Positions 14,433 through 64,000 of a stretch of DNA of 64,000 bases are shown piece after piece. Below the pieces are notes generated by a model. The model had not been told where the DNA came from. It was given only the letters and a program-made list of their open reading frames with translations, and made no database searches. This DNA is from Microvirga terricola (GTDB lineage Bacteria > Pseudomonadota > Alphaproteobacteria > Rhizobiales > Beijerinckiaceae). Position 1 is the stretch's first letter, and each line of letters begins with the position of its first letter. Location of the stretch: contig NZ_JAATJS010000002.1 in assembly GCF_011777495.1 (NCBI RefSeq), forward strand, positions 310,001-374,000, in the 5' to 3' direction. The position numbers and the translations under genes were made by a program.

Positions 14433-15071
14433 ATGGCCGACAGCAAGCGTGAGTCCGAAGCGTCTTCGAGCGAAAGACAGGGCAATTCCGAAAAGGGCGT
14501 CCGCTCAAGGGTCTCCGCGGGGACGTCGGTCGGCGACATCGGGCACTCGCCGATGCCGCATGCCCAGGAGGTGACCGAGACGAAAGGGCGGGCGCAGGAA
14601 ACAGCTGAGCGTGTTCGCGAGGTCGCCGAGGAGGCGCGACGGCGGGCTTCCGAAACTTACGAGGATGCGACGGAATGGGCGCACGACACCTATGATCGCG
14701 TCTCGGATTGGGCCTCCGACGCCTATCGGCATCGCGGCGAAAAGATGCATCACCTGCGCGAGCGCTCGTCCAAGCGCTTTTCCGAGGCGCGTAGCGGCAT
14801 CCAGCACTATGCCGCAGACAACCCTCTGGTGGTGGGGCTCGTCGGATTTGCCGTCGGACTTCTCATTGGCGCCCTGCTGCCGCGCACGCGCCGCGAGAAC
14901 GAGCTGTTCGGCGGCTGGTCGGATGCGGCGCGCAGCCAGGGACTGCGCTATGCCCGCGAGGCCGCACGCACGGGACGCGAATATGTCGAGGACATGCTCG
15001 ACGCGGAGGATCCGCGCTTGAGAGAAGCAGGCAACGAGTTGCGGCGAAAGCGCCCAAGAGCGCCGGATTAG
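14433..15071 (+). CDS. DUF883/YqjD-like membrane-anchored helical protein
   Basis: The ATG at 14433 follows CAGGAGCG and gives 212 residues. A disordered Ser/Glu-rich N-terminus is followed by a long charged helix (about 45-125, rich in A-E-R repeats such as TAERVREVAEEARRRASE). Next come the YqjD/ElaB hallmark NPLVVGLVGFAVGLLIGALLP (about 130-150) and a charged tail. It is probably an inner-membrane-anchored protein that associates with ribosomes or the envelope in stationary phase, by analogy to YqjD. It is the last gene of the block. Confidence 0.8.
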   Translation: MADSKRESEASSSERQGNSEKGVRSRVSAGTSVGDIGHSPMPHAQEVTETKGRAQETAERVREVAEEARRRASETYEDATEWAHDTYDRVSDWASDAYRHRGEKMHHLRERSSKRFSEARSGIQHYAADNPLVVGLVGFAVGLLIGALLPRTRRENELFGGWSDAARSQGLRYAREAARTGREYVEDMLDAEDPRLREAGNELRRKRPRAPD

Positions 15072-15149
15072 CCCGAATGCGGTACCCTTCCGGATTAGAA
15101 TTGCGCCGATATTTGAAGGGTTTCGCCGAAATTGCCACTGTGCTGGACC

Positions 15150-15174
15150 GGAACTTCCTGGCGCGCAGCCCGTT
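15150..15174 (+). promoter_or_regulatory. Candidate sigma-EcfG promoter for receiver gene
   Basis: GGAAC (15150-15154), 16 bases, CGTT (15171-15174) is an exact consensus match. It lies 76 bp upstream of the GTG at 15251 and inside the non-conserved 5' part of the longer open frame, supporting the shorter gene model. Confidence 0.72.
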
Positions 15175-15250
15175 TCCTGCCTCGTACAGAGTTGCATCCG
15201 GGCAGGGGCTACGGGTCATCAAAATGTGGGTGGGCCGGTGGAGGCGTGGC

Positions 15251-15595
15251 GTGCGTGTTTTGATCTTGGAGGACGACCCTCTGATCGCTCTCGATCTGCA
15301 GGCGATCCTGGAGAACGATGGTCATGAGGTCGTAAGCGTCTGCGACTCGCTTGCCGAGGCGCGGGGGCATCTGGAAGACGGGTTCGATTGCGCGTTGCTC
15401 GATATCGATCTCGTTGATGGCAAAAGCTTTGGCGTTGCGACCGTTCTCATGGAGCGGCACATCCCTTTTGCGTTCGTGTCGGCGTCGCACCCGGGCGAGG
15501 TTCCGGACACGCTGCGGGTGGCTTCCTTCATAGCCAAGCCCTTTGAAGAAGAGGCAATTCTTCGCTCCCTCGAGGAAGTTGTTCCGGGGGGATGA
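15251..15595 (+). CDS. Single-domain response regulator (receiver only)
   Basis: A GTG start at 15251, six bases after GGAGG, gives 114 residues beginning directly with the receiver strand VRVLILEDDPLIALD. The frame stays open upstream to 15077, but that part lacks receiver homology and contains the promoter. Acidic pair EDD, phospho-acceptor Asp in LLDIDLVDG, Thr/Ser position VSA, and Lys in AKPF are all present. There is no output domain, so it likely acts by protein contact or as a phosphate sink. Together with the next receiver gene and its promoter it looks like a general-stress signalling component. Confidence 0.8.
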   Translation: MRVLILEDDPLIALDLQAILENDGHEVVSVCDSLAEARGHLEDGFDCALLDIDLVDGKSFGVATVLMERHIPFAFVSASHPGEVPDTLRVASFIAKPFEEEAILRSLEEVVPGG

Positions 15596-15651
15596 GTGTT
15601 GCGTCCTAGCAACTGCGCCGAAAGTCGTAGAAACTGGTTCCTAAATGGTAT

Positions 15652-54337: not shown

Positions 54338-55876
54338 ATGGCAATCGATCCAAAGAATCTTGCCGGGACGGCAACATTGACGTTTGGCGATGAGTTCAAT
54401 TCGTTCAGCTATTGGAACGGAAAGTCTGGCACGTGGGACACCGGCTATCCCTGGACCGCAGCGAATGGCGGTACCAACGCGGGCAACAATGAGGAGCAGT
54501 GGTACATCAACGCCAACTATGCACCGACGCAGGGGCTGGGAACCTACTCCGCAAGCAATGGCATCATGAACATCAACGCCGCGCCTGCTTCCGCGGCGAC
54601 GAAGTCCTTGATCAACGGCTACAACTACACCTCGGGCATGATCACTACGGCCCACTCGTTCAGCCAGACCTACGGCTACTTCGAGATGCGCGCCAAGCTT
54701 CCTGCGGGGCAGGGCCTGTGGCCGGCCTTTTGGCTGTTACCGACCGACGGCTCGTGGCCGCCGGAAATCGACATCATGGAGGTGATCGGCAGCTCGCCGA
54801 ACCAGCTCGAGACCACTGTGCATTCTAATTCCGGCGGCTATCAGATGAACAACAAGTCGACGACTGTTCAGGGAATGACCACCGGCTTCCACACCTACGG
54901 CGTGGACTGGGAAAAGGACAAGATCGCCTGGTACCACGACGGTGTGAAGATCTATGAGACCGCCACTCCTGCCGACATGAACAAACCCATGTACATGCTG
55001 GCCAATCTGGCGGTCGGCGGCGATTGGCCGGGAAGCCCGAACAGCAGCACGCACTTCCCCGCAACCATGCAGATCGACTACATCCGCGCCTACAGGGCCG
55101 GCGCGACCCCAGGCGGCTCGACTCCAGGCGGCAGCACGGATCAGCCGACGCCTGCGCCTACGCCGAATCCTATTCCGACTGGCCAGAAACTCTTCAGTTT
55201 GCCGGGCAGCGCCGCGACGACGAAAACGATCATCGGCACGTCGGCTGCAGACTACCTCAAAGGGTCGTCCAAGCATAACGCGATCAACGGCAAGGCCGGC
55301 GCGGACGCCATGTTGGGCGGCTCGGGAGACGACACGTATTACGTCGACCACAAGGCGGACAAAGTCATCGAGAGCGCGGGGAAGGGCATCGACACGGTCA
55401 AGACCGCTCTTGCCTCCTACAAATTGTCGGCGAATGTTGAAAACCTCACCTTGTCCGGCAAGACCAGCCAGACCGGCGTCGGCAACGAGCTGAGCAACCG
55501 GCTCATTTCGAACGGTGTTGCCGCCAATAAGCTTTCCGGTGGTGCAGGCAACGACATCCTGTACGTCGGCAAGTATGCCGACATCCTGACGGGTGGTTCG
55601 GGACGCGATCAGTTCGTCTTTAAGAGCGCACCAGTGAAGGCGGGCCACATCACCGACTTCACGGTCGGCGTTGACGTCCTCGACCTGCGTGGCCTGTTCG
55701 TCGGCTACAAGGGAACGAACCCAGTTTCCGATGGCCGCCTGAGCTTCGTGGACACCGGCGCCGGCGACACGATCGTCAAGTACAAGTCGGCGGCCGGAAC
55801 TGTGTCGACAGTCACGACACTCGACCACGTCACCGCGAGCCAGCTGCACGCGAAGGCAGACTACTTCTGGGCGTAA
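54338..55876 (+). CDS. Secreted GH16 endoglycanase with RTX repeats (ExsH-like)
   Basis: The 512-residue protein has no Sec signal. The GH16 domain (residues about 14-255) contains catalytic motif PPEIDIMEV (nucleophile and acid/base Glu at about 143 and 148) and the aromatic-rich cleft GQGLWPAFWLLP. A Pro/Gly/Thr linker (about 255-283) precedes a C-terminal Ca-binding RTX region with GGSGDDTY-type nonapeptides (about 320-340 and 403-430), which marks type I secretion. This layout matches S. meliloti ExsH, which depolymerises succinoglycan. It is not in the same operon as the biosynthetic genes. Confidence 0.85.
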   Translation: MAIDPKNLAGTATLTFGDEFNSFSYWNGKSGTWDTGYPWTAANGGTNAGNNEEQWYINANYAPTQGLGTYSASNGIMNINAAPASAATKSLINGYNYTSGMITTAHSFSQTYGYFEMRAKLPAGQGLWPAFWLLPTDGSWPPEIDIMEVIGSSPNQLETTVHSNSGGYQMNNKSTTVQGMTTGFHTYGVDWEKDKIAWYHDGVKIYETATPADMNKPMYMLANLAVGGDWPGSPNSSTHFPATMQIDYIRAYRAGATPGGSTPGGSTDQPTPAPTPNPIPTGQKLFSLPGSAATTKTIIGTSAADYLKGSSKHNAINGKAGADAMLGGSGDDTYYVDHKADKVIESAGKGIDTVKTALASYKLSANVENLTLSGKTSQTGVGNELSNRLISNGVAANKLSGGAGNDILYVGKYADILTGGSGRDQFVFKSAPVKAGHITDFTVGVDVLDLRGLFVGYKGTNPVSDGRLSFVDTGAGDTIVKYKSAAGTVSTVTTLDHVTASQLHAKADYFWA

Positions 55877-56445: not shown

Positions 56446-57504
56446 CTAGGCACTTAGGCTGCGATGCTTGACGAGATCCAGGGCCATGAAAGGGACGCCG
56501 GAGAGAAGCGCCCGAAGGGCCGCTTCGTTCTGGTGCAGACCGTTGATCGAGACGCGGGGGAGGGCGGTGGGGTGGGCGAGATGCCTTGTGAAAATGTGGC
56601 CGGGACGTGTCGTGACCGCGGCTTCATATCCGCTTTGTTGAGCGAGCCCGAATTCTCGCTCTCCGGCCGAGCTAGGATCGCCGTGCGGATAGGCGATATG
56701 ACGAACGCGCCGGCCAAGTTGGCTCTCGATGAGGAGCTTGCTTCTCGAGATCTCCGCCGCGGAGAATTTGGCGTCGTGCCGGGCTAGGATCGGGTGGCTC
56801 AGCGTGTGCGATCCGATGGTGACGTCGGGGTCCCTCGCGAGCAATCGCACCTCGTCCCAGCTTGCGCAAAGTTTTTTGACGAGGCTATCGGGATCGAGGT
56901 CGATCTGTCGTGAAAGATCGCCGATGACGGCGAGCAAGTGCTCCTCAGGTCCCGCTTTCAGGCGACGGCGTAGCAGCCCGAACGCCTCCGACTTCTGCGC
57001 TGTCGTGCCAGTCGTCAGCACAAGTCTTTCCTCATGCAGCGTGACTTCAATATGATCGAGCTGCGCGATCGCCATTTCTAGCTCGAGCCACCAGAGGCGA
57101 CCGTGTCCGCTCGCGAAGTCATTGACCACGAACATCGTCCACGGCGCCTTCAGCCGTTTCAGGATTGGCCACCCATATTCGATGTTGTCGCGATAACCGT
57201 CGTCGAAGGTCAGGACGGCGAAGGGAGGATGAGAGCGCGTCGAGCGTAGTCGGTCGGGGACTTCGTCCAGGGAGATGATTTCGAAGCCGTCCTTCCTCAG
57301 CGTGGCGACGGTCTTTGCAAGAAACTCGGGCGTGATTTCGAGGAAGCGGTTCGGTGTGAAGGGCTTCTCGTGCCAGGGCCTCACATGGTGAAACATCAGA
57401 ATAACGCCCGCGCCCCTGGCAAGAGGGCGAAGCCAAATATCGGCCCGCGTCGCCGAGATGGCGGAAAAGCCGGTTGCGAAAAGGTGATGCCGCCAGGATG
57501 GCAC
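56446..57504 (-). CDS. Polysaccharide deacetylase
   Basis: The GTG at 57504 has GAGGAG five bases upstream and gives 352 residues. The NodB homology domain shows ILMFHHVRPW, catalytic base motif LTFDDGYRDNIEYG (Asp pair) and the metal-binding SHTLSHPIL His motif, then AYPHGDPSSAG. It removes N- or O-acetyl groups from polysaccharide. There is no signal peptide or anchor, so cytoplasmic action or non-classical localisation is possible. It is the last gene of the exopolysaccharide operon. Confidence 0.83.
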   Translation of the reverse strand: MPSWRHHLFATGFSAISATRADIWLRPLARGAGVILMFHHVRPWHEKPFTPNRFLEITPEFLAKTVATLRKDGFEIISLDEVPDRLRSTRSHPPFAVLTFDDGYRDNIEYGWPILKRLKAPWTMFVVNDFASGHGRLWWLELEMAIAQLDHIEVTLHEERLVLTTGTTAQKSEAFGLLRRRLKAGPEEHLLAVIGDLSRQIDLDPDSLVKKLCASWDEVRLLARDPDVTIGSHTLSHPILARHDAKFSAAEISRSKLLIESQLGRRVRHIAYPHGDPSSAGEREFGLAQQSGYEAAVTTRPGHIFTRHLAHPTALPRVSINGLHQNEAALRALLSGVPFMALDLVKHRSLSA

Positions 57505-57515
57505 TTCTGCTCCTC

Positions 57516-59729
57516 TCAAAGCTTTGCCGTTCTTGCCGCACTTGGTGGAAGAAAGACGCGAATGCGATCAATGCGCAGGTCTGCTGGAAACGGCGTCGTG
57601 GTGTCGGGTGCGCCTGGCCAGGATCCACCGACGGCAAGGTTGACGATGAGATACATCGGCCCGTGCATGTCGGGAGGCGTCGGCAAGTTGCTGACCGCGC
57701 GCCCATCGAAATACCAGACGATTTCCTCCGGGGTCCATTTGACGCCGTAAATATGAAAGGCCTCCGCGAGGTCAGGTGTCGGGATTCGAATTTGCGACCG
57801 GGAAGCGAAGCCGAGGAAGCCCCTCGTGTGGGCAGTCACGACATTGGTGCGCGTGTCATGCCCAAGCACTTCCATGACGTCGATCTCGGGCGGCCAGGTC
57901 TGATCCGCGGGTGCAAGCCAGAAGGCGCTCCAGAGACCGCGGCCGCGCGGCACGCGGGCACGGATTTCGGCATAGCCGTAAGTGAACGAAAAACTCTTGG
58001 CCGTTGTCAGGAGGCCTGACGTGTAGCGTAGGCCGGTTTGCCAGGCCTGATCCGCCTTCCGCGTCGCGCGTGCCCGAATGACGAGAGAGCCGCCCTCGAT
58101 TGAGAACGGACTTGGTTCGCCCGCCGCCCCCGTGTTCACGCCCAACCGCGGGTCGATATAATATTGAAGCTCGCCATTGGAGGCGTTCGTGCGTCCGCCC
58201 CATGGATAGTGCGGCTCCCAGATACCCGATGCGCCGTCATTCCACAGGCGAAGGCCTTTGCCGAAGCTATCCTCGAAGGCCAGCTTCCATCCGCTCGGTG
58301 GCACGCTGTCTCCCACGCGGGTCGTGTGGATGGCCGCCACGACCTTTTGGGAGGGGCCGGGCAGAAAGGCGATGACCGTCAGCGCAATCACCAGCAATAC
58401 CTGAACGGCATAAATCCGCGCGGCGGACCGCCGGTTGAGGACTCCGAGCCAGAACATGCGCAACACGAGGCCGCCAAACAGGAAAAGCCCGGCGGCGACG
58501 CAGCCCCATGCCTGCCCTTCGATGCCGGCGAGGCGGCTACCCAGAGTCATCGCACCAACGAGCACGAAAAATCCGGGAACGAACATGAATGCTGAATCCC
58601 GTTTCGGGCTGGACGACAAGGCGATGACGACCGGGATGAGCCACGCGATCACGCCAAGGGAGATGCATGAGACGGCAAGCGCAATGGTCGAGGCCGTTGC
58701 CGCCTCGAAATGGGGGAAGACGAGCGTGATCAGGCGGTGTGTCGCGAAATGCGCAATGACGGCGATCAGTGCAAGTCCCGGGCCGAGAATGAGCGCATGG
58801 CGCTCGACCAACCCCGAGCATGTACCGGGGGATGCGCGCGCAACGTGGCCAAGGAGCTTGGGATAGTAGACCTGGGCGATCGTCGAGATCATTCCGAGTC
58901 CGACGAAGGCAAGATTAGCTCCGAACGCGAACAGGCCGAGATCGTCCGGCGAGGAAAGGGAGGCCGCGATCCAGCGATTGGCGCTCAAATAAACAAACCA
59001 GAGCGCGTTGAAGATGAAGAGCGGCAGCGCCGAACGAACCAGCGGCCAGATGCGAGCCGGACGCGTCGATGCGTGTAAGCCGGTGCGCGCAAAGAACATC
59101 GCGAAACCGCCATACCACAACAGCAAAACGGCGAAGCAGCCCGTGATCCCGCCAAAGACGAGGCCGGCGAGGCGTGGTGCCGTCATGCCGACCTGCAGGG
59201 TCAAAGCCACAGCCGTGAATTCCCACACCTGCGCACCGGCTCTGAAAATGGTGACGGGCGCGTTGGCCACCATTCCGAGTCCGCCACCGGCAATCGCAAG
59301 AGCGGTATCAAATGGCGAGAGCCCGCCGCTGATGGCCGCCGCGAGCGAGGCGAGCGGCATGATGACCAGGAGGACGATTCCGCCGATGGCCCAATTGGCC
59401 CGGAGAATATCAGCGCCGCGCTCGATGGCAGGTGCGCCTTCTCTCGTCAGGTCACGATCGGCGAGTTGCGACAGGCCGAGATCGAACTTGCTCGCGAACT
59501 GGAACAGGCTCGTTAGCAGAGCGAAAGCGCCGAAGGCCGCTGGTCCAAGGAGAGAGGGCGCTACGAGCGATGTGCCGATGCTCAGAAAGCTCGTGACCGC
59601 GGTGCCGATGGTGTAGACGAGAGGGTGACCGAGCCACGCCAGGCTGCGTGACGCACGGATCGACTGAACGGCCCCCGGCAGCGGGAACGATTGCTCCGCG
59701 CCGACATCCGGATTCAGAGTCGGCGTCAT
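57516..59729 (-). CDS. Fusion of Wzx-type polysaccharide flippase and GH16 glycanase
   Basis: One uninterrupted 737-codon frame. Residues about 1-456 form a polytopic MVF/Polysacc_synt-like flippase (about 12 helices, for example LVYTIGTAVTSFLSIGTS, FDLGLSQLADRDLTREGAP, FIFNALWFVYLSANRWIAASL). After the last helix, a short linker leads to a GH16 domain (about 483-727) with catalytic PPEIDVMEV (Glu about 615 and 620). The GH16 part shares GLWSAFWLAPAD-type cleft sequence with the secreted ExsH-like enzyme. Placement predicts a periplasmic glycanase tethered to the exporter. S. meliloti uses separate ExoT and ExoK proteins. It overlaps the glycosyltransferase gene by 4 bp. Confidence 0.85.
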   Translation of the reverse strand: MTPTLNPDVGAEQSFPLPGAVQSIRASRSLAWLGHPLVYTIGTAVTSFLSIGTSLVAPSLLGPAAFGAFALLTSLFQFASKFDLGLSQLADRDLTREGAPAIERGADILRANWAIGGIVLLVIMPLASLAAAISGGLSPFDTALAIAGGGLGMVANAPVTIFRAGAQVWEFTAVALTLQVGMTAPRLAGLVFGGITGCFAVLLLWYGGFAMFFARTGLHASTRPARIWPLVRSALPLFIFNALWFVYLSANRWIAASLSSPDDLGLFAFGANLAFVGLGMISTIAQVYYPKLLGHVARASPGTCSGLVERHALILGPGLALIAVIAHFATHRLITLVFPHFEAATASTIALAVSCISLGVIAWLIPVVIALSSSPKRDSAFMFVPGFFVLVGAMTLGSRLAGIEGQAWGCVAAGLFLFGGLVLRMFWLGVLNRRSAARIYAVQVLLVIALTVIAFLPGPSQKVVAAIHTTRVGDSVPPSGWKLAFEDSFGKGLRLWNDGASGIWEPHYPWGGRTNASNGELQYYIDPRLGVNTGAAGEPSPFSIEGGSLVIRARATRKADQAWQTGLRYTSGLLTTAKSFSFTYGYAEIRARVPRGRGLWSAFWLAPADQTWPPEIDVMEVLGHDTRTNVVTAHTRGFLGFASRSQIRIPTPDLAEAFHIYGVKWTPEEIVWYFDGRAVSNLPTPPDMHGPMYLIVNLAVGGSWPGAPDTTTPFPADLRIDRIRVFLPPSAARTAKL

Positions 59730-60904
59730 ATGTGGCTCCGCCTAGGGAACGGGATTGCCTCGCCAAAGCTGACGACGTCATTGTCAGTTTCATCCAGTTG
59801 CGTCGCGTCACAGCAACTTGCCGGAACATTTCCATTCTTGCGGGATCGCCGTGCGGCGAACGCATCGAACCGGGGCGAGCTTTTCATGATGCCCAGTCTC
59901 TCCAGCTCATCGTTCGAGCGATAGTTTTCGCTTCCCTCAAAGAACAGCGTTGTCGCAGGTTCGTCGGTGAGTAGAGACGCGTATCGGACGTATTCCGCGC
60001 CGCCGTCCCAGTGCTGTTTGCGTGTCGCCTCGGTGATCGCGCGGTTGTGGAAGTCGGCGAAGAACTTGAAGTGCAGCAGCGCGCCTCTCACCTCGGCGAG
60101 TTTGAGCGGAGTGGTCCGGTGGTTCGACACCCAGTGGCGACCCGCGCGCCCCTTGATGAGGGGGATTTTGGTGAGATCCGGCGGCAGGGCACTGCCCCAT
60201 TTCGTCCGCCGCAGACCCAGCGCCGAGCCGAGGGGATGGCGCCTCAGCTTGCGGAGCGCGCGGTGCAGAGCCATCTGCCAGACGCCGGCATGAAGGAACT
60301 CGGGATAAAATTTCCGAAGTCGCGGACCGCCGACCGCCTCGACTTCCGCAAAAGTACGTTTGACGGACTTCAGCCCGACCTTGCGTCTGATGTGGTAACT
60401 CTTGTCGAAGTGCGGGCAGGTTTCCAGGAAGGGGGTTCCCGGCGCATAGACCGCATCCGCGATGGGGCCGCGGTTGTACATGTCGAGCAAGAGTGCAAAG
60501 GCACCCTCGTTGCCGGTCTGATCGAGAAAGCGGCAGAAATCGGGAAGGGAGAGTTCGTCTGCGTGCGGGAAGGTGAAAAGCTCGTCGGCGTCGAGAAAAA
60601 GGCACCAGCTGCCGATACCAAAACGCTCGACGAGAAGGTTTATCCAATGCATGCCGTAATTCGCTTCGCCAAACGACGCGAATGTTTGAAAGACATGGCA
60701 ATCGGGCTGTGAGAGCAGGAAATCGACGGTGCCGTCCTCAGACCCGTTGTCGACAAAGAAAAATCGATCGACCCCCAAAGTCCGATGATAGGCAAGATGG
60801 TAGGGAAGTCGGGAGACTTCGTTGCGGACCACCAAGAACGCGCCATGGCTTCCTGCGCTGCTGCTGATCGGGCGCGTATCCAGGCGTGAAAGATCGGCGC
60901 TCAC
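59726..60904 (-). CDS. Glycosyltransferase family 2 (Glyco_tranf_2_4-type)
   Basis: The 392-residue protein begins FLVVRNEVSRLPYHLAYH and contains GVDRFFFVDNGSEDGT with metal-binding DADE in WCLFLDADELFTF. This is the GT2/GT92-like fold (Glyco_tranf_2_4) that transfers sugars to growing glycans. It is basic and cytoplasmic, with no membrane helices. It overlaps the fusion gene and the upstream polymerase gene by 4 bp each, so translation is coupled across the operon. Confidence 0.85.
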   Translation of the reverse strand: MSADLSRLDTRPISSSAGSHGAFLVVRNEVSRLPYHLAYHRTLGVDRFFFVDNGSEDGTVDFLLSQPDCHVFQTFASFGEANYGMHWINLLVERFGIGSWCLFLDADELFTFPHADELSLPDFCRFLDQTGNEGAFALLLDMYNRGPIADAVYAPGTPFLETCPHFDKSYHIRRKVGLKSVKRTFAEVEAVGGPRLRKFYPEFLHAGVWQMALHRALRKLRRHPLGSALGLRRTKWGSALPPDLTKIPLIKGRAGRHWVSNHRTTPLKLAEVRGALLHFKFFADFHNRAITEATRKQHWDGGAEYVRYASLLTDEPATTLFFEGSENYRSNDELERLGIMKSSPRFDAFAARRSRKNGNVPASCCDATQLDETDNDVVSFGEAIPFPRRSHI

Positions 60905-62334
60905 GGATGGGCTCCTTCCGGTGCGATTACGAGGGTCTTTCCGGCGTTGTCGGACGAAGCCAGTCGACGAGCGCTGCCCCCGCTCGCGTCCCGCGCGAGG
61001 AAGAAGAAGACGGCCAGCGTCAGAAGAACCGGGCTCGCGAAAATCTCGACCTCACCCAGGCCGACAATGAGCATGAAGACGGCGAACTGATCCCGGGCCG
61101 GATCGGGAGACAGAAAGAAACGCGCTATCAATAGGGCGATGGAGCCGAAACCGGGCAGGGATCCGAGGATCCCGATGGACAGCAGGCTTTGCAGAAACAT
61201 GTTGTGCGCGTTCACAGCTGACCCGACGAAGGAGGCGCTCACGTTGTTGGAGAGCAGTCCCTCAGTTCCGTTGAATCCCCACCCCAACAGCGGCTTCTGG
61301 AGAAAAAAACGCCAGACGAGATCCCAGACTTCAGTCCGCCCGGTCAGCGTGAAGATTTCGCTCGTTGTTCCGGTGCGGCTGAGGCCTTGAAGGAGACTGC
61401 CGACATCGGCCATTCCTACGACCGCGGAAACGAGGAGCAGGATCGCGACTCCTCCCAGCATGGCAAAGGTCAGCGGAGCGCCATAGCCTCGCTCACGGAC
61501 GGCTATGAAACTCCATGCAATGGCGACGGCAATTAGTGTCGTCCTGCTGCCGGTGGCGAGTAGCGCCATAAACCCCAAGGTCAGGAACGCCAGATAGGTG
61601 AGACGCTGTAGACATCTGAGACGGCGGGCGATGATGGCGAGAGTGATGAAGACGCCGATTTGTTGGCCGAACACATTAGGATGCCCGGCAAGACCCTGAA
61701 GGCGATAAACGTTTTCCTCGACGGAGGGTGGAAGCCATGCCGCCTCAGGCGCGACCACTCCTGCCACAACGCCGACGAGGAGATAGACCGCAAGCGTCCA
61801 GACCATGACGCGAAGCGCGTTGTTCGCGCCGAGATCGATGATCGCGATGCAGGACAACGCGATATAAGCGAAGATGCCGATGGCGCTCGCGCCCGTATAG
61901 GCGGGAACAATGGACCACGCCGAGGAGGCGAGGGAGACACATCCGTAGGCGAAGGCAAGGCCGAGAATCGGTTCCCTGATCAGAAAAGCGATCTGGCGCC
62001 ATCTGGCGAGCGCGATCGCGATCAAAGCCAGCCACGTCGCAAACTTCAGGCCGCTCTGGAAGTCGAGGCCGGTGACGCCGATTTCCCGTTGGCGAAAATT
62101 GAGATTGAGAGCAAGAACGACGAATGCCAGCAAGCACGCCGTCGCGTAACCACGTCCCTGCATGGCGTGCAGCAGTGCGATTCCCGCAAGACCGGAAATG
62201 ATGACGACGAGCGGGGCTGCGTAGGCAACCTCTCCCAGGCTAGCGGACGTGGCGAGTATCGTTGCCCATCCGACAGCGGCACAAAGGAGGATGCCGACTG
62301 AAATCGCCCGGTCGGAGGAAGATGCGAGCGTCAT
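60901..62334 (-). CDS. O-antigen ligase/Wzy-like polysaccharide polymerase
   Basis: The 477-residue inner-membrane protein has about 12 helices and a Wzy_C/WaaL-type region with LATGSRTTLIAVAIAW, then a large periplasmic loop carrying RTEVWDLVW, GWGFNGTEG and the conserved His of NAHNMFLQSLLSIGILG. In an exopolysaccharide operon without lipid A genes it is more likely the Wzy-type polymerase (ExoQ role) than a lipopolysaccharide ligase. It is flanked by the co-polymerase 17 bp upstream. Confidence 0.83.
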   Translation of the reverse strand: MTLASSSDRAISVGILLCAAVGWATILATSASLGEVAYAAPLVVIISGLAGIALLHAMQGRGYATACLLAFVVLALNLNFRQREIGVTGLDFQSGLKFATWLALIAIALARWRQIAFLIREPILGLAFAYGCVSLASSAWSIVPAYTGASAIGIFAYIALSCIAIIDLGANNALRVMVWTLAVYLLVGVVAGVVAPEAAWLPPSVEENVYRLQGLAGHPNVFGQQIGVFITLAIIARRLRCLQRLTYLAFLTLGFMALLATGSRTTLIAVAIAWSFIAVRERGYGAPLTFAMLGGVAILLLVSAVVGMADVGSLLQGLSRTGTTSEIFTLTGRTEVWDLVWRFFLQKPLLGWGFNGTEGLLSNNVSASFVGSAVNAHNMFLQSLLSIGILGSLPGFGSIALLIARFFLSPDPARDQFAVFMLIVGLGEVEIFASPVLLTLAVFFFLARDASGGSARRLASSDNAGKTLVIAPEGAHP

Positions 62335-62351: not shown

Positions 62352-63737
62352 TCAGTGAGCCGCCAACAATTGACGAGCTTTCACCGACAGAGGACGCCAG
62401 ACCATGGCCGCTCCCGCCGCGATTCCGGCGAGCAGTGTTCCTAAAAACGCCAGCACGGGATCGGGGAAGGTGGGGCGCGCTGGAATCTCAGCATGTGCCA
62501 GGATTTCGACGTCCGGTCCGAGCGAAGCCAAGCGGGCTGATTGCTCCTTGAGACGCACCAGCGCCGCATCGAGGACGCTCTTGTCGGTCGCTGCGTCCTG
62601 GCGAAGCTCATCCAGTTTCAGCTCTGCCCGATGCCGCTCGGCGAGTTCTTCTCGAATGGCTTTCATAGCCTTGCGCAAAACCTCTTCTCTCGCCGCCCAA
62701 GCCTTTGCCGTGGCGTCCATGTTCATGATTTGAACGGGCGAGCCGAAGCCAAGCTTGTTGTCTAGTAGCCATGTCACGGGTCGAGAGGTGTCGGGCAGGG
62801 CAGCATCTTTTGAATCCGCCTCGAAGGAAGGCGCCAGGATTTCCAACGCTCCGCCGATGGTCCGGCTCCTTTGCAGTTCTGCCTGCATCGTCGCGTTGAT
62901 GTACCGCTCCCGCGCGTCGGCAGCCTCCTTGCTCAATGCCGTCAGTTGATTTTCCAGGGAGGTCCGCGTTGCGCTGTCCACGAGGTCCGACTCGACCGTG
63001 AAATCACTGACCGCGCGCTCAGAGCGTTCCTGCCTGGCGCGCAGGTCGGCGACGCGCTTGGACAGGCTGTCGGAAAAGCTCTCTGCCAGCTTCCGTTTGC
63101 GTGCCTCCTGGTCGTCCAGATAGGCCCGGAGCAAGCTCTCCGTCATCGCGACGGCTTTGGTTGGGTCCGATGACCAGTAGCCGAACTTGATCGTATACGA
63201 CCGGCGGTCACGAGAAATGCTCAGCCGCTTCTGAAGGCGATAGCGCAGGTCGGCGGTGGAGATCGTGGGAGCTTTCTTGGGCGAACCGAGGAGCGATGGC
63301 AGTGTTTCGTGCGCCCAATCGCTGAGATGCGCTCTCCAGCTCGTCGGGCCCGATCCGAATTCCGGATCGGTGGCCAGGTGGTTTTGTGCGATGACAACCG
63401 ATGCGATGGCGGGTGACGCCATCAGGTCCATCTCCGACTGAATGGCATTTTCATCAAGCGGCTGGCGGAGAGATTCGCTCCGATCAAGCTGCCCATTCTC
63501 ATTTGTCGGACGCATGATCACAGAAGCGGTCGCTTCGTAGCGACGTGGCAGCAGCGGCCAAGTCGCAGCGGCTGCAACGGCGACCACCGCGAAGCCGGCA
63601 ACAAAGCGCCGAACATAAGGAGATTTCAGGAAGCCGCGGTTCATCTTCGCTGTCGCGGGCGGTGCCATATGAAGCTTCTCACTTTTGAGGGTTGACCGCT
63701 TCGCGAGAGAAAGATTCTCGAAGGCCGTGTCATTCAT
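62352..63737 (-). CDS. Wzz/GumC-like chain-length co-polymerase (no kinase domain)
   Basis: The 461-residue protein has a cytoplasmic N-terminus, one helix (FVAGFAVVAVAAAATWPLL), the Wzz N-domain YEATASVIMRP, a long periplasmic coiled-coil region (about 185-420) and a C-terminal helix (FLGTLLAGIAAGAAMVW). There is no Walker A or C-terminal Tyr cluster, so it lacks the tyrosine autokinase domain of ExoP/Wzc. It should set polymer length with the Wzy protein. A separate kinase may be encoded outside the window. Confidence 0.83.
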   Translation of the reverse strand: MNDTAFENLSLAKRSTLKSEKLHMAPPATAKMNRGFLKSPYVRRFVAGFAVVAVAAAATWPLLPRRYEATASVIMRPTNENGQLDRSESLRQPLDENAIQSEMDLMASPAIASVVIAQNHLATDPEFGSGPTSWRAHLSDWAHETLPSLLGSPKKAPTISTADLRYRLQKRLSISRDRRSYTIKFGYWSSDPTKAVAMTESLLRAYLDDQEARKRKLAESFSDSLSKRVADLRARQERSERAVSDFTVESDLVDSATRTSLENQLTALSKEAADARERYINATMQAELQRSRTIGGALEILAPSFEADSKDAALPDTSRPVTWLLDNKLGFGSPVQIMNMDATAKAWAAREEVLRKAMKAIREELAERHRAELKLDELRQDAATDKSVLDAALVRLKEQSARLASLGPDVEILAHAEIPARPTFPDPVLAFLGTLLAGIAAGAAMVWRPLSVKARQLLAAH

Positions 63738-63795: not shown

Positions 63796-64000
63796 TTAAG
63801 TACGAACGAGCGAATAGAGGCGCCGCCGGAGCTGGCCCGAAACGAGGCGGAAGGTCGTGTACATCGCCGTAACCATGACGAGCTGGCGCACATTCAGAAA
63901 TCCCGATCGGAAGCAGTCGATCCGGAATCGAATTTCCTTGATGCAATAAGCCAGGCCACCGCGGCGAATGCGCTGCTCCGTGCCGGAACGAACGCGGACA
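63796..64000 (-). CDS. C-terminal part of a probable glycosyltransferase (5' end beyond window)
   Basis: The frame is open to the window edge and ends at TAA 63796-63798, giving the last 67 residues. It ends RGGLAYCIKEIRFRIDCFR followed by GFLNVRQLVMVTAMYTTFR and RRRLYSLVRT, a basic, Arg-rich C-terminus like those of GT2 exopolysaccharide glycosyltransferases. The gap of 58 bp to the Wzz gene suggests the same operon. The alternative minus-strand frame here (63734-63946) reads as low-quality sequence. Confidence 0.5.
   Translation of the reverse strand, partial: VRVRSGTEQRIRRGGLAYCIKEIRFRIDCFRSGFLNVRQLVMVTAMYTTFRLVSGQLRRRLYSLVRT

Follow-up and report, generated by a model that had tools for sequence, protein, structure and literature searches.

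A Wzx-type flippase and a GH16 glycanase domain share one reading frame in an exopolysaccharide gene cluster of Microvirga terricola

The window analysed here is a stretch of 64,000 nucleotides from Microvirga terricola (contig NZ_JAATJS010000002.1, positions 310,001 to 374,000). Its last part carries a set of exopolysaccharide (EPS) genes, in the middle of which lies a single gene encoding both a flippase and a glycoside hydrolase family 16 (GH16) domain. The genes, and the parts of the fused gene, are as follows.

54338..55876, plus strand: another GH16 gene, next to the cluster; RTX repeats, type I secretion target domain
56446..57519, minus strand: polysaccharide deacetylase; its start overlaps the stop of the fused gene (TTGA)
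57516..59729, minus strand: fused flippase-GH16 gene, 737 aa, ATG start, TGA stop
57540..58289, minus strand: GH16 catalytic domain of the fused protein, residues 481-730, laminarinase-like
57870..57887, minus strand: catalytic EIDVME motif (E615, D617, E620)
58290..58364, minus strand: linker, residues 456-480, with low pLDDT in 459-473
Within the linker, minus strand: candidate signal peptidase site after VVA (466-468)
58365..58433, minus strand: 13th transmembrane helix, residues 433-455, predicted to run from cytoplasm to periplasm, extending past the WzxE match
58428..59627, minus strand: Wzx-type flippase core, residues 35-434, 12 helices
59726..60904, minus strand: GT2-type glycosyltransferase (Glyco_tranf_2_4); its stop overlaps the start of the fused gene (ATGA)
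60901..62334, minus strand: Wzy-type polymerase (Wzy_C), overlapping the glycosyltransferase gene 59726..60904 (GTGA)
62352..63737, minus strand: Wzz-type co-polymerase, 461 aa, without a matched kinase domain, upstream of Wzy
63796..64000, minus strand: end of a GT2 glycosyltransferase gene that continues past the window

The 737 codons of the fused gene run without interruption from ATG to TGA, with no stop in the linker between flippase and GH16, and GC content by codon position is even over the whole length. A single-chain fusion, as put forward in the original prediction, is borne out by this open frame and by its conservation in 19 genomes. Three junctions of the cluster are four-base overlaps (ATGA, TTGA and GTGA), and past the window end a Bac_transf priming transferase adjoins the GT2 gene, so that a priming transferase, glycosyltransferases, Wzx, Wzy and Wzz lie together in a Wzx/Wzy-dependent EPS cluster. 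The company foreseen for the fusion, namely a kinase-less Wzz, a Wzy and a deacetylase, is confirmed by Pfam and NCBIfam matches. For a PCP-2a-type kinase, no Pfam kinase model matched the Wzz and an NCBIfam transport-family model matched its N-terminal part only; likewise, eight Wzz frames from related clusters gave no Pfam kinase match (E up to 0.01). No outer-membrane exporter (Poly_export) was found in the window's cluster; the genome encodes two elsewhere, on contigs C13 and C1 and not on C9, the contig of the window, and other flippases lie on both C13 and C1. Judged by gene content, the cluster product should be a short-repeat EPS with a deacetylated sugar.

In the GH16 half, Pfam GH16 (PF00722) matches residues 568-712 with 89.5 bits against a cut-off of 22, and the predicted structure of this half is a beta-jelly-roll. 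Its closest solved structures are laminarinase-type GH16s, mostly hydrolysing laminarinases together with other endo-glucanases. The catalytic residues were predicted to be intact, and E615, D617 and E620 of the ExDxxE motif, along with eight other tested positions, are indeed invariant in all 19 fused proteins. This conservation argues for an active enzyme. An ExoK orthologue is rejected, with 33.9 bits to NCBIfam NF052392 against a cut-off of 350, and the EglC model NF052454 (230.8 bits) also falls far under its cut-off of 700. The laminarinase-type GH16s of Thermotoga (3azx) and Pyrococcus (2vy0) are degradative enzymes and differ from the protein described here in having no flippase fused to them.

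In the flippase half, Pfam Polysacc_synt (PF01943) matches residues 38-290 with 25.8 bits, just below the cut-off of 28.2; with neighbouring pieces in frame the score is 37.5 bits, and it is 37.1 bits for a split homologue. The predicted AF2 structure has the 12-helix, two-bundle Wzx/MOP fold and aligned to WzxE over residues 35-434, with 14% identity in the structural alignment. This match came through VIA-align, the best 50 Foldseek rows being GH16 folds only. WzxE is described as having 12 helices and an Arg tail that lies close to the entrance on the cytoplasmic side (PMC11706664), and the fused protein differs from it and from other Wzx/MOP flippases by the added helix 13 and the GH16 domain. 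The N-terminal part most likely flips lipid-linked repeat units.

The count of 13 helices is a reading of the hydropathy scan, which merged some helices and gave two stray peaks, combined with the AF2 helices, of which 168-217 and 375-427 were each counted as two. Most K/R residues sit in loops that the predicted topology places inside, and helix 13 (433-455) is predicted to turn the GH16 domain toward the periplasm. We infer a periplasmic GH16 domain from this model, as originally proposed; a cytoplasmic placement is not predicted. The flippases of unfused relatives also finish with helix 13, and therefore this helix is probably older than the fusion. The protein looks like a flippase with an outward C-terminus that has accepted a periplasmic enzyme.

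The 19 genomes with the fusion fall into eight genera, seven of them in the family of M. terricola and the eighth in a different family. Full-length fused matches occur in 5 of 48 genomes of the genus and fused genes in 18 of 397 of the family, own genome included in both counts, with one of the latter interrupted by a contig end. A search of 397 genomes of the order added one more, G709, from another family in which it is the sole fused genome among 101. Among 385 genomes of the class only the own genome matches at E 1e-60, and a profile search of 329 genomes of the phylum recovered fused proteins in the own genome and G709 only. A pattern scan across a collection of 84,980 species recovered 25 loci, of which 4 are full-length. 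These counts describe genome samples in which few candidates were scored per genome. No fusion was seen on plasmids, where 285 of 72,556 records match but none over more than 80% of the query; the best 20 of the 285 cover only residues 453-736, and the flippase part alone has no match among these records. The fusion is rare and largely limited to one family, which fits descent with occasional transfer.

Homologues are not always two genes, with 19 fused against 2 split. Searched alone, the flippase part is present in 21 of 328 family genomes, of which 17 are fused, 2 split and 2 showing no adjoining GH16 in short contigs. The split pair, G331 and G152 (genus g9), carries separate flippase and GH16 genes in the same cluster, the order in G331 being RTX-GH16, priming transferase, GT2, Wzz, GT2-type, flippase, exporter, Wzy and GH16. 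Such separate genes in one cluster tie the functions of flippase and GH16 together independently of the fusion. Both separate GH16s, that of G152 with a start chosen by hand inside a longer frame, begin with a basic stretch followed by a hydrophobic core, and these signal-peptide-like N-termini, expected under the modelled topology, suggest that the GH16 belongs outside the cytoplasm. In the other two relatives, G246 and G265, the contigs that carry the flippase span 4.3 and 5.6 kb and show no GH16 beside it; G246 does encode a GH16, on a different contig. Since two relatives are split and two show no adjoining GH16 in these short contigs, the physical link between flippase and GH16 is not indispensable.

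Phylogenies bear on how these arrangements arose. In the GH16 tree, fused and split proteins form one group against 18 other GH16s (99/99) in which the split pair is nested among the fused proteins, but the test did not reject monophyly of the fused GH16s (p 0.35). The flippase tree rejects an arrangement in which one branch separates all fused rows from the others (p 4.2e-5); the split and GH16-less pairs lie apart, and the GH16-less pair groups with fused rows of g30 (100/99). When the remote G882 served as outgroup (end branch 4.07), a position outside the rest was not rejected for the split pair by itself (p 0.22) or for the GH16-less pair by itself (p 0.14). The flippases of the own genome were set aside as an outgroup because they are too distant to align, and one looks like MurJ. 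The simplest reading, with modest support, would be one old fusion that was later split in g9, with a later loss in part of g30.

Our best explanation, which we hold with moderate confidence, is that the fused gene encodes an EPS Wzx/Wzy-pathway protein that flips repeat units and whose tethered GH16 cuts the polymer and sets its chain length. The N-terminal 12 helices would flip undecaprenyl-linked repeat units across the inner membrane, and helix 13 would bring the C-terminus into the periplasm. There, a retaining GH16 endo-glycanase, attached through some 25 linker residues, would cut the polymer coming from the neighbouring Wzy, before or during export. Such cutting would determine how long the chains become and remove stalled ones beside the Wzx-Wzy-Wzz complex. 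The substrate is most likely the cluster's own EPS, cut in the periplasm. This explanation takes flipping, a lasting tether and polymer cutting together, and in it we infer the tether, the substrate and the trimming.

The proposal that fusion puts the hydrolase next to the emerging polymer needs amending. As worded it is not supported, because Wzx moves single repeat units and the polymer forms at Wzy; it stands only if Wzx is in a complex with Wzy/Wzz, and the nearness of GH16 to the polymer depends on that complex. A review cites two-hybrid data for contact between a rhizobial co-polymerase and the flippase PssL, whose 12 helices were confirmed with PhoA/LacZ (PMC5748678). The fused GH16 may serve chain trimming or length control. 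More tentatively, helix 13 could deliver a glycan cutter, within one chain, to the assembly site for length control in a pathway with a kinase-less Wzz, and in some lineages this helix could also be a cleavable internal signal peptide, making the protein a bacterial polyprotein. If the tethered arrangement holds, the polymer is edited by the same machine that supplies its building blocks. Ideas on how periplasmic EPS glycanases gain access to nascent chains come mostly from mutants, and the natural fused, split and apparently GH16-less relatives provide a comparison for asking whether flippase, polymerase and glycanase act as a single complex and whether cutting determines chain length.

A cut after helix 13 may undo the tether. 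In the corresponding alternative, which we consider doubtful, the product is a polyprotein in which helix 13 serves as an internal signal peptide and signal peptidase I frees a periplasmic GH16, leaving a normal flippase; the fusion would then fix dose and export route, not position. Of the 19 fused proteins, 14 have an AxA site 2-14 residues past the core of helix 13, compared with none of 5 unfused flippases; in one of these five, G265, the rule took an earlier helix, and by eye its tail is without a site. Shuffled tails gave a mean of 8.65, and 18 of 2000 trials reached 14. Several sites in genera g29 and g31 look textbook, and the Bradyrhizobium cytochrome b/c1 precursor is cut in this polyprotein manner. 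However, the signal is weak, as other predicted periplasmic exits pass the AxA rule in 46 of 113 cases and one exit does so in 14 of 19. In addition, the site is absent in M. antarctica, P. lubricantis, G093, G234 and G114, the 19 fused rows are relatives and not independent, and the rule misses the separate GH16s of both G331 and G152 even though these look exported. Release by signal peptidase is thus possible, most clearly in g29 and g31.

The remaining alternatives fare less well. An improbable one gives the GH16 domain a transglycosylase or binding role, in which chains would be joined or passed on at the flippase and not hydrolysed. GH16 is a retaining family with transglycosylases among its members, and the domain gives a weak Pfam SKN1_KRE6 match (30.6 bits against a cut-off of 30), but the predominance of hydrolysing laminarinases and endo-glucanases among its nearest solved structures speaks against this role. 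We consider it very unlikely that an internal start yields an additional, separately secreted GH16 with helix 13 as its ordinary signal peptide: all 19 genes have an in-frame ATG, GTG or TTG before or within helix 13, yet the best match to AGGAGG is 4/6 and 11 of the 19 lack any candidate reaching 4. Finally, an open frame produced by an assembly or annotation artefact is ruled out by the same fusion in 18 other genomes, the fused family members among them having flippase parts with 38-70% identity to that of the window.

The tethered flippase-glycanase can be set beside EPS systems with the same components. ExoT is the flippase of the Sinorhizobium meliloti succinoglycan pathway, and S. meliloti ExoT, ExoK and ExsH are encoded by separate genes, in contrast to the one chain found here. 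That pathway is likewise of the Wzx/Wzy type with two GH16 glycanases, and the two GH16s of the window, one of them with RTX repeats plus a type I secretion target domain, are reminiscent of the ExoK/ExsH pair. When both ExoK and ExsH are mutated, S. meliloti is reported to make only high-molecular-weight succinoglycan (PMC4916376). The promonan cluster of Sphingomonas also combines a GH16 (PrmQ) and a Wzx (PrmI) in one EPS cluster, but as two genes; deletion of the separate PrmQ gave rugose colonies, and its authors predicted that it cuts the polymer during secretion (PMC11340318). Deletion phenotypes are known for the promonan cluster, and the fused flippase-GH16 is described here from sequence and predicted structure. 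Both halves and the pathway are already known; what would be new is the covalent join of Wzx and GH16. The accessible parts of the literature searched, consisting of openly licensed PMC papers only, yielded no description of a flippase-GH16 fusion.

Several further observations concern the surroundings of the fusion. In other genera, a GT4-type transferase (L070:4008-5351, L071:11157-12356) replaces the GT2-type transferase before the fusion, and therefore the sugar repeat probably differs between genera while the fusion stays. Several clusters in other genera have an exporter-like frame beside the fusion, Pfam-tested in G331 only. Relatives of the RTX-GH16 (54338-55876) sit at the corresponding position in the four other Microvirga clusters and at the opposite end in the split clusters of G331 and G152. 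The own genome encodes a third GH16 of 370 aa (L087:8756-9865, plus strand), with no EPS cluster genes within the surrounding 19 kb. The cluster is also flanked, beyond the end of the window, by two LuxR-type regulators (L084:13021-13800 and 14802-15608, plus strand), which are related to each other and have relatives in the clusters of G003, M. brassicacearum and M. antarctica. Another joined frame occurs in two genomes of genus g31, where a GT2 transferase and a Wzz-like protein share one gene encoding 815 and 819 aa:

L077:11488-13932, minus strand: GT2/Wzz-like one-frame gene, genus g31
L078:4286-6742, plus strand: GT2/Wzz-like one-frame gene, genus g31
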